A DNA stretch of 64,000 nucleotides from Cyanobacteria bacterium FACHB-471 (GTDB lineage: Bacteria; Cyanobacteriota; Cyanobacteriia; Elainellales; Elainellaceae). Shown here in pieces: positions 36,959 through 39,103 of the stretch. The position numbers were made by a program, and so were the translations under genes. Each line of letters starts with the position of its first letter. Position 1 is the first letter of the stretch. The DNA lies in the NCBI GenBank assembly GCA_014695345.1, contig JACJOC010000012.1, positions 1-64,000 of the forward strand, read 5' to 3'. The notes under the pieces were generated by a model. It saw nothing but the letters and a program-made list of their open reading frames with translations, was not told the DNA's origin and searched no databases.

Positions 36959-38230
36959 TTGCTAGATACAGCTGAAAACGACACGCAGTTTAGTCACTCT
37001 TGGAGCAACTGTTCTCCGCCTTTGTCTGCTCTGGCAAACCAGTATGGCTGGGCAACTCCAGAAGACGGCATCAATCCAGAGCTATGGCTTGATCTGGCGT
37101 TAGACCTATTTATAGAAGGGGATTTTCAGACGCGATGGGATGTTGCGAAACTCTTGCCTCGCTTTGGGACAAAGGCGATCGCTCCCCTGATTGCGATTCT
37201 TGAGCACGAGGACACTGACTGGGAATTGCTCTGGTTTACTGTGCGAACCCTAGGCGAGTTTGACCATCCTGTCGTAGTTGAGGTTTTAATCAGTTTGCTA
37301 AAAACCGCTGAAGGAGAACTCAGTGCGGTTGCTGCAGAAGCTCTAGCAAATTTGGGCAATCAGGCGATTGCTCCGCTAACAGAACTGCTGTCGATGGAGC
37401 AGTTTCGGCTTTTGGCAGTGCGATCGCTCTCCCGCATTCGCCATTCTCAAACGATCGCCCCTTTGCTCAGCATTACAAACGATGCGCAGCCCGAAATTCG
37501 TGCAGCAGCAATTGAGGCATTGAGCAGCTTTCACGACCCGCGTGTCTTTCCGGTGTTGGTCAATGCGCTTCAAGATCCGGCAGCGGCAGTTCGGCGAGAG
37601 GCAGTAATTGCTGTGGGTTTGAGAGCCAACCTGCAAGCCGAGATCGACCTGGTCAATCTGCTGATTCCTCATTTAACAGACTTAAATTTGCAGGTTTGTC
37701 AGCAAGCGGCGATTGCCCTAGGGCGACTGAGCAACCCTGCCGCAGCCCAAGCTCTCGCTGACATGCTGCACTCCCCTCATACCCCTTCAGCTTTTCAGAT
37801 CGAAATTGTTCGATCGCTAAGCTGGGGCATGACCGCAACCGTTCTCAAAAAAATTCAGTCCATTCTGCCTTGCGTTTCGGCAGAGGTCTATCGTGAAATG
37901 ATTGCCGCTCTCGGAAAAGTGGAAGATCCAGCGCTAAAGCCTCAAGCAGCGGAAATTTTGATCACTTTGCTTGATTCTGAGTCCTCGCCGCAGTCACCAG
38001 GAAAACAAGCGATCGCCCTTAGCTTAGGACATTTAGGCGAAATTAAGGCTCTAGACCCATTGATCGGGCTGCTGTCAGAGTCAGATCCAGGAGTACAGCT
38101 ACACGCGATCGCCGCCCTCAAGCAACTTGCCCCAGATGCTGCTCATGAGCAGCTAAAGATGATGGCGAAAGACACAAATTTGCCAGAAGCGCTACAGTGC
38201 GGAGTAGCAAACGCTCTCAGGGAATGGTAA
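36959..38230 (+). CDS. HEAT-repeat protein next to nirA, candidate NirB
   Basis: A 423-residue all-helical repeat protein. From about 55 to the end it consists of PBS-lyase-type HEAT repeats (for example AIAPLIAILEHEDTDWELLWFTVRTLGEF and DALVNALQDPAAAVRREAVIAVG-like units). No lyase-specific catalytic feature is visible. The start is TTG with AAGGA 10 nt upstream. It is divergent from nirA, across a 1-kb region carrying two exact NtcA-type boxes. Established elsewhere: a gene called nirB, adjacent to nirA in Anabaena and Synechococcus, is needed for full nitrite reductase activity. I think this gene may be its counterpart, but I cannot confirm the homology here, so no symbol is given. Confidence 0.82.
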   Translation: MLDTAENDTQFSHSWSNCSPPLSALANQYGWATPEDGINPELWLDLALDLFIEGDFQTRWDVAKLLPRFGTKAIAPLIAILEHEDTDWELLWFTVRTLGEFDHPVVVEVLISLLKTAEGELSAVAAEALANLGNQAIAPLTELLSMEQFRLLAVRSLSRIRHSQTIAPLLSITNDAQPEIRAAAIEALSSFHDPRVFPVLVNALQDPAAAVRREAVIAVGLRANLQAEIDLVNLLIPHLTDLNLQVCQQAAIALGRLSNPAAAQALADMLHSPHTPSAFQIEIVRSLSWGMTATVLKKIQSILPCVSAEVYREMIAALGKVEDPALKPQAAEILITLLDSESSPQSPGKQAIALSLGHLGEIKALDPLIGLLSESDPGVQLHAIAALKQLAPDAAHEQLKMMAKDTNLPEALQCGVANALREW

Positions 38231-38491
38231 GTCTTGTGTGATTGGATTAAGTTATTTGTCAGTAAATAACTTCAAATCAACAAATTAGATTGAATTATTA
38301 AATTATTACGAAAACTTTCATAGAATAACTTCAGGCCAAGTCAGTGGGATCTTTGCGATCGCAGTGCAGCTTTGCCGCCAATAAAAGCGTTAAAAGGTTT
38401 AAATCGGTAGAAATACGTTCCAAAAAGTCTAATCAAGCAGCTATGCAACGGGCGATCGCCCGTTGAAATAAGGCACCCAAGGATTTGATTG

Positions 38492-39037
38492 ATGAGTATT
38501 ACTGAAACCGATACAAAAAATGGACACGGTGGGGAACTAAAGGAGGGAGCGATGAGCAGCGAAAACGAATCTCAAACTACGGCGGTTGAATCTAACAATG
38601 ATTCACAGGGGGCTGACCATGCTACTAAATCTGGACAGTCTGAATCAAACAAATCTTCAAGTCAGATCCAGTTTCGTCCATCGGGTGAGTTGGCTAACCG
38701 CCCTATTGGTCCCAGTGACATCGAAGTTGAAAATGCCCTTAGCATGTCAGGCTATCGCCCGATCGCTGCTAGCAAGCTGGAGATTTCAGGGTATCTGCTA
38801 GGCAACCGCCCAATTTCTGCTAGCCACCTGCGGGTTGTGGACGTTGACAGCCTTCCGGGTCATCGCCCCGTTTTCGCCAATGACTTTGAAGTACTGGATG
38901 TCGATACGCTGCCTGGACATCGCCCCATTGTCGCCAGCAGCGCCGATCTGATGAGAGGTAGCCACCTCCCCGGCAATCGCCCGGTCGCCTCTAACGAGAT
39001 CGACCAGCCCGAAGGACTCATGGGCTTCCTCGACTAG
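38492..39037 (+). CDS. Unknown protein with 19-residue 'GxRP[IV]' repeats
   Basis: A 181-residue protein. Residues 1-60 are hydrophilic, Ser/Asn/Gln/Glu-rich and probably disordered. Residues 61-175 carry six copies of a short motif ([GA]-[NYH]-R-P-[IV], then often [AS]S..L or D) with RP at 70, 89, 106, 125, 144 and 163, that is steps of 19, 17, 19, 19 and 19. The C-terminus is acidic/hydrophobic (LMGFLD). No signal peptide, membrane helix or Cys. I chose the ATG at 38492, 8 nt after AAGGA, over the TTG one codon earlier. I do not recognise a characterised family. It may be a cyanobacteria-restricted repeat or scaffold protein, or a multi-core precursor. No modifying enzyme is adjacent. Confidence 0.8.
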   Translation: MSITETDTKNGHGGELKEGAMSSENESQTTAVESNNDSQGADHATKSGQSESNKSSSQIQFRPSGELANRPIGPSDIEVENALSMSGYRPIAASKLEISGYLLGNRPISASHLRVVDVDSLPGHRPVFANDFEVLDVDTLPGHRPIVASSADLMRGSHLPGNRPVASNEIDQPEGLMGFLD

Positions 39038-39066: not shown

Positions 39067-39103
39067 AAGCGGGAGTAAGGTTCAACCCTTCTTCCGCTTT
39101 TTT
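39067..39103 (+). terminator. Hairpin with T-run after the GxRP-repeat gene
   Basis: AAGCGG...CCGCTT arms with an inner AAGG/CCTT pairing, followed by TTTTTT at 39098-39103. It begins 29 nt after the stop codon. The best-formed rho-independent terminator of this part; it also faces the end of the convergent phosphatase gene. Confidence 0.7.

Follow-up and report, generated by a model that had tools for sequence, protein, structure and literature searches.

According to the available text of PMC11365436, the middle repeats of CsoS2 interact with the carboxysome shell, and its C-terminal domain, which carries a conserved end peptide, is shell-binding as well. Here, we describe a gene located on a 64,000-nucleotide stretch of DNA (hereafter the window) from Cyanobacteria bacterium FACHB-471, whose product, the RPI-repeat protein (RPI), shares several of the features given for CsoS2 in that same text, namely short repeated motifs and a highly conserved C-terminal peptide, as well as a disordered chain and two isoforms, the latter two being predicted in the case of RPI. 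The two proteins differ in size (about 130-250 amino acids in most RPI members versus about 90 kDa) and in motif (RP[IV] at intervals of 19 residues versus (V/I)(T/S)G triplets), and the isoforms of RPI, unlike those of CsoS2, would arise from an internal start. The Pfam model of CsoS2 matched none of 72 RPI members (E 0.1), and the RPI family was found, in our sample, only in genomes without CsoS2.

McdB proteins, the adaptors of the ParA-type protein McdA, reach carboxysomes via a C-terminal aromatic motif; α-McdB ends in R(V/I)WPD, while the end of the β-McdB of S. elongatus is described as necessary, not sufficient (PMC11321042, available text). The parallel with RPI would be best for α-McdB, which, like the RPI tail, has an acidic and aromatic C-terminus with an aromatic residue at position -3 and an Asp at -1 (same text). 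However, McdB has an invariant C-terminal Trp and works with McdA, whereas the window protein has a Phe at this place and no ParA neighbour; indeed, no ParA was recognised by eye among the window ORFs, and a McdB-like context was found only for the ParA-partner ORFs of family f17, described below.

CcmN and CcmM link cargo to the shell, CcmN via a C-terminal peptide, and CcmM has a short form that arises from an internal start. We saw no homology between RPI and either protein, and the CcmN end of one genome (G046) is a different sequence. In the window's own genome, the genes which we take by eye to be ccmM and ccmN are separate genes on contig C63. CcmS is a shell-assembly chaperone, an accessory factor that acts on the C-terminus of a shell protein (PMC11635287, available text); it is a folded dimer, unlike what is predicted for RPI. 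According to the available text of a 2026 review, species that lack CcmS or CcmK1 must rely on other mechanisms of assembly (PMC13249358), and the RPI family is a candidate for such a route.

Gene structure and candidate translation starts

The features of the RPI gene are listed in Table 1. The mechanical ORF begins at TTG 38489, and ATG 38492 is the start that gives 181 amino acids. The original prediction, made from the window alone, had assigned this gene its own Shine-Dalgarno sequence and a terminator, and both were recovered: AAGGA precedes ATG 38492, with a stronger site, AAGGAGG, serving a second in-frame start at ATG 38552; and positions 39062-39106 fold into a hairpin whose stem is followed by a T run (-17.6 kcal/mol, z -4.7), although a terminator scan that covered only loops of 3-8 listed none for this gene. 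Cys is absent from all 181 residues, as had also been noted. The head of the protein was free, by eye, of long hydrophobic runs, and no secretion signals were seen by eye in the family ORFs viewed.

Table 1. Position of the RPI gene and its elements in the window.
Feature	Position	Strand	Basis
CDS of the RPI-repeat protein, long form, 181 aa	38492..39037	+	ORF list and homologs
AAGGA, candidate Shine-Dalgarno of the long form	38479..38483	+	sequence
N-terminal extension, residues 1-20, long form only	38492..38551	+	in frame in two congeners
AAGGAGG, internal Shine-Dalgarno for ATG 38552	38540..38546	+	sequence
Candidate short form, 161 aa, from internal ATG	38552..39037	+	start-site analysis
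Repeat array, residues 61-161, RP motifs 1-5	38672..38974	+	relatives in same register
Last unit and C-terminal tail, residues 162-181 (NRPVASNEIDQPEGLMGFLD)	38975..39034	+	tail comparison
C-terminal LMGFLD, [YF]-x-D end	39017..39034	+	tail count over family
Terminator hairpin, then T run	39067..39099	+	folding

The hypothesis of an internal start arose from inspection of the window, before the relatives were counted. Among 81 heads, an internal ATG or GTG behind a Shine-Dalgarno sequence of at least 5 bases was present in 30, versus 10.7-11.8 expected from synonymous shuffles; when only ATG was considered, 22 were found versus 6.5-6.8 expected. After the heads were thinned to 50 rows, the excess was 14 internal starts versus about 6 expected (P 0.0004-0.0007), or 9 versus about 4 for ATG alone (P 0.005-0.008). 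In three loci (L053, L059, and L138), an in-frame stop stands directly before the Met that matches ATG 38552, so that these genes are restricted to the internal-type start. The N-terminal extension is identical at 17 of its 20 residues in each of two congeners, and the pooled dN/dS of the extensions was about 0.43 (12 hand-chosen pairs, with internal starts set by hand). At least in the family to which the window belongs, the gene would thus appear, from these start-site comparisons, to yield two isoforms, one long and one short.

Repeat array and C-terminal tail

The six [NYH]-R-P motifs announced by the original prediction are all present (residues 70, 89, 106, 125, 144, and 163, preceded by N, Y, N, H, H, and N, respectively), at spacings of 19, 17, 19, 19, and 19 residues, and the same register recurs in an alignment of relatives. 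An extra FRP at residue 62, out of register, had been absent from that prediction. Homologs with conserved spacing do exist: in 91 distinct homologs, selected by at least three RP motifs and the tail pattern, 268 out of the 380 spacings were exactly 19 residues and 359 fell within 17-20 (21 outside). Counted per homolog, at least four RP motifs were found in 89 of the 91, with a maximum of 11; over the whole family, including single-unit proteins, the number of repeats ranges from 1 to 11. Purifying selection on the repeat region is strong, with a dN/dS of about 0.08 (12 hand-chosen pairs, which share members).

The constant part of the family is its C-terminus, which is nearly fixed. An end of the type [YF]-x-D was found in 108 of the 110 repeat ORFs, versus 5 of the 955 other long mechanical ORFs from the same loci, a count that set no tail requirement on ORFs of loci which had themselves been fetched with profiles including the tail. 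The two exceptions are L132 (G048) and L154 (G123). The aromatic residue at position -3 is Tyr or Phe in every listed end (Phe in the window), and the tail consensus is RP[IV]A.N......LMG[YF][LI]D. The acidic LMGFLD end noted in the original prediction is indeed present and, being nearly fixed over the family, is not incidental. The constancy of the tail, its sharing with other proteins, and the link to carboxysomes had all been missed.

Single-unit relatives and ccmK-type genes

The same tail occurs in multi-repeat proteins and in single-unit proteins of 48-75 amino acids, the latter found in several other families. In the window's own genome, a profile of 31 tails retrieved, at E < 0.1, the window gene and a one-unit ORF of 67 amino acids (contig C73). 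We examined eight single-unit loci outside f17, leaving out the single-unit genes of the congeners G001 and G002. In five of these eight loci, which belong to five families (L210, f28; L212, f38; L213, f29; L215, f4; and L217, f3), the tail gene shares its strand with two ccmK-type BMC genes and lies 90-950 bp from the closer one. No ccm genes were seen at the three others, i.e., the own-genome paralog on C73 (G000), the locus of G055, and that of the 48-residue protein of G089. The ccmK linkage is a property of the single-unit relatives, not of the multi-repeat gene.

In four of the five linked loci, a 195-amino-acid gene without a name, referred to here as MPYT, separates the tail gene from the two ccmK-type genes, and each of the eight f17 genomes sampled had a tail-MPYT pair, 13-48 bp apart. 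MPYT, which has the sequence pattern M.YTT.QLIQILEQEL.., was found at L212:4459-5052, L213:4184-4771, L215:658-1245, and L217:3002-3661, as well as in L156-L162 and L167, its place being either in the interval from the tail gene to the ccmK genes or immediately behind the tail gene. It gave no match in Pfam or NCBIfam (two copies searched in each) or in the PDB (one copy, E 1), and its identification as CcmS, for which that single PDB search gave no match, is unsupported. MPYT is another candidate for a carboxysome factor.

In four f17 genomes (G125, G069, G051, and G095), a further ORF has the tail at its end. In G125 and G069, this ORF directly follows a ParA gene and shares 4 bases with its end, the ParA type having been assigned by search in the former and by eye in the latter; in G051 and G095, the ORF alone was seen, without its flank. 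These ORFs (L216:4744-5762, L253:1498-2636, L252, and L254) end with LMG[FY]LD. The f17 ParA-partner ORF looks like a positioning adaptor, with a Tyr or Phe where known McdBs have a Trp.

Genome G048, which is Gloeobacter-like by our guess, possesses the family (11 RP motifs) and only four BMC hits. CcmK3/K4 is unlikely as the sole partner of the family, given its presence in G048 and the statement that, in four genomes from the most ancestral clade, CcmK1 and CcmK2 are the only ones encoded (PMC5853843, available text).

Proposed role of the RPI protein

We propose that RPI is a disordered, multivalent adaptor of β-carboxysomes that docks by its tail, and we give this reading, taken as a whole, an even chance of being right; the bare claim that the family is linked to carboxysomes is, in our opinion, somewhat more probable. 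In view of a build like that of CsoS2 and an end comparable to that of McdB, the C-terminal tail would bind the carboxysome, docking on one of its components, most likely a shell protein, and the upstream RP[IV] units would bind too, as weaker copies of the tail contact. A single molecule could then bridge several shell or cargo subunits. The two translation starts would provide a long and a short form, like the two forms of CsoS2; CcmM also has two forms.

This adaptor role is favoured by the ccmK linkage of the single-unit relatives, by the taxonomic range, by the joint decay with shell genes, and by the tail of the ParA partners, with weak support from the proximity of rbcL in G046 and from the adjacency of prk (see below). 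Against it stand the neighbours of the window gene, which are not carboxysomal, and the existence of some 99% complete genomes with BMC genes and without the family. In a broader formulation, which we consider possible with the balance somewhat against it, β-carboxysomes would own a disordered repeat scaffold, with a function like that of CsoS2, together with a C-terminal docking code, RP[IV]A.N...LMG[YF][LI]D, common to the scaffold, to the small proteins linked to ccmK genes (putatively of the ccmK3/ccmK4 type), and to a ParA-type positioning adaptor.

If the adaptor role is correct, RPI would be an overlooked component, present in most sampled cyanobacteria without CsoS2, of one of the best-studied bacterial organelles. 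β-carboxysomes would gain a disordered multivalent linker, as α-carboxysomes have; the tail would offer a short, portable targeting sequence for engineering; and the family would give a handle on shell assembly in species without CcmS.

Genomic neighbourhood

The neighbours of the window gene are nirA, a HEAT protein, a phosphatase, and a nurA-like gene, and this neighbourhood is conserved only within the genus, save for one nurA match. The HEAT-repeat protein (window positions 36959-38230) is related to NblB/CpcE models, and its gene adjoins the RPI gene only in the window's two congeners among the 62 named loci tested. The surroundings of the multi-repeat gene differ between families. In the loci read, ccm genes were never directly beside it; the nearest such case is G046, presumably of the S. 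elongatus type judging by its CcmN end, in which the repeat gene is about 7.2 kb from rbcL.

Of the 82 loci L062-L143, 11 have prk (NCBIfam) upstream of the repeat gene in the same orientation, at a distance of 7-500 bp; these 11 may represent a single clade. In the same 82 loci, uvrB was found within 500 bp in 5 and menD in 3. Neighbour clustering showed that the commonest neighbour was a Psb32-like gene (13 out of the 61 loci with a centre gene, window included). The names uvrB, menD, and Psb32-like are those that we presume from the sequences, as is that of a glcD-like gene, which lies about 0.9 kb from the RPI gene in L132 and 3.4-3.9 kb from it in six loci of the window's family (within L076-L091). 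A glycolate dehydrogenase would fit CO2 fixation too, but the distance is large.

These neighbourhoods bear on an alternative in which a carboxysomal role would be confined to the single-unit and ParA-partner proteins, and the tail of the multi-repeat protein would serve another partner, e.g., an enzyme of the Calvin cycle such as phosphoribulokinase, or the thylakoid. The distance to ccm genes is in line with it, and so are the adjoining prk, Psb32-like, and menD genes. However, both kinds of proteins end in the same tail, the multi-repeat gene is decayed or missing where the shell genes are decayed, and the neighbours themselves change from family to family. We consider this alternative unlikely.

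Taxonomic range and decay alongside shell genes

Homologs were found in 55 of 60 relatives (E 0.01), and the repeat family in 297 of the 388 genomes sampled from the class (E 0.001), including one pseudogene (G353). In a draw of 194 genomes from the phylum, the 73 matching genomes all belonged to the same class or nearer. No member was found in the viral contigs and phages searched. CsoS2 was present in 64 of the 388 genomes, all from family f2, and none of these 64 had the repeat family; the tail profile, run over 49 of them, retrieved no full tail and two partial matches (E 0.006 and 0.09). This mutual exclusion rests on one clade (f2) and may be a single event.

BMC shell proteins were present in 386 of the 388 genomes. 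Within genus g147, the repeat gene is intact in G347, where six BMC hits were found. G353 has one weak BMC hit and, in the same place beside uvrB as the intact gene of G347, a repeat pseudogene that is interrupted by an in-frame stop and has lost much of its motifs; G383 has two BMC hits and no family match. To guess from size, the g147 pair may be endosymbionts of diatoms. In another family, G141 (93% complete, 8% contaminated, 3.8 Mb) gave neither BMC nor family matches. G314 is the opposite case, with a repeat gene and no BMC hit in a genome that is 82% complete.

The repeat search came up empty in 27 of the 324 genomes without CsoS2. Seven of the 27 belong to f17 and carry tail proteins, and one of the seven, G105, also possesses a diverged member with five RP motifs (L155); the remaining 20, several of which are incomplete, gave no tail at E 0.05 either. 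G166, G208, and G371 are 99% complete, have 4-6 BMC hits, and yielded neither repeat nor tail, which rules out that the family is universal in β-carboxysome genomes. Since some near-complete genomes with BMC genes do without it, the family is common in, and not essential to, β-carboxysomes.

Range and decay could also be by-products of genome reduction and of a single clade split, with the function lying elsewhere; f2 is indeed one clade with small genomes, and G353 and G383 are small for their genus. This explanation, which leaves the ccmK linkage in five families unaccounted for and does not suit G141, whose genome is not among the smallest, seems to us quite improbable.

Family assignment and structure

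The window protein had no match in Pfam, NCBIfam, or PHROGs up to E 1 and no relative among PDB sequences (best E 0.95), and an alignment of the repeats of 72 members gave no PDB match up to E 10. This set of 72 was compiled without L002, L061, L097, L131, L132, L144-L147, and several near duplicates. Scanned singly, its members gave stray matches, the strongest of which was to the model of AIDA-I, an autotransporter with 19-residue repeats in its secreted passenger (3 out of 72 members, best E 4.1e-5), a score that would lie below the level of a family assignment. The earlier statement that no characterised family fits is therefore upheld by these searches.

AlphaFold2 returned a pLDDT of 45 and a pTM of 0.18 for the whole protein, and a pLDDT of 63 and a pTM of 0.27, with many short strands, for the repeat region; Foldseek gave a single, meaningless match (E 9). 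Given these low-confidence models and the lack of a Foldseek match, we claim no fold. The models fit a disordered protein, which is how we tentatively read RPI, and a poor alignment would give the same picture. The original prediction had left a choice between a solenoid, a precursor with repeated cores, and a multivalent scaffold of short motifs. The first is unsupported by the models and by Foldseek, and also because proteins with a lone unit exist, which cannot form a solenoid by themselves; the second is unsupported as well, since no processing genes were recognised by eye among the neighbours, members have anywhere between 1 and 11 repeats, and what stays constant is the C-terminal end. 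The multivalent scaffold is the best reading of the three.

A β-solenoid or another folded repeat protein of unrelated function would explain why the spacing of 19 is kept across families, and both the short strands of the repeat model and the AIDA-I matches point in this direction. The low scores of that same model, the lack of a Foldseek match, the variable repeat number, and the 21 spacings outside 17-20 argue against a folded repeat, which we regard as highly improbable. We give very little credence to the tail being a tag for degradation or general regulation that is recognised by some protease or adaptor of most cyanobacteria, since, although its short, hydrophobic, fixed C-terminus on unrelated proteins has the look of a C-degron, the full tail is absent from the 49 CsoS2 genomes tested, which possess ordinary proteases, and the observed linkage is to shell genes.

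A literature search did not find the letters of the motif or of the tail (subscription papers being mostly outside its coverage), and a search for a matching protein or carboxysome component gave nothing fitting among the matches listed. The words "hypothetical", "unknown", and "uncharacterized" are absent from the text of a paper on the composition of native β-carboxysomes (PMC11973430).

Divergent members

A second subfamily has DGxRPI repeats and ends such as DYID (L002:1444-1881 and L144-L147); it sits on contig C102 of the window's own genome and on plasmids of Nostocales. A plasmid search retrieved eight Nostocales records, seven annotated as "hypothetical protein" and one without annotation, and the four plasmid records examined were all of this divergent DGxRPI type. 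Finally, in L140:7008-8294 and L245:1498-2772, the repeats are preceded by a very long, Ala/Lys/Thr-rich, histone-H1-like head.
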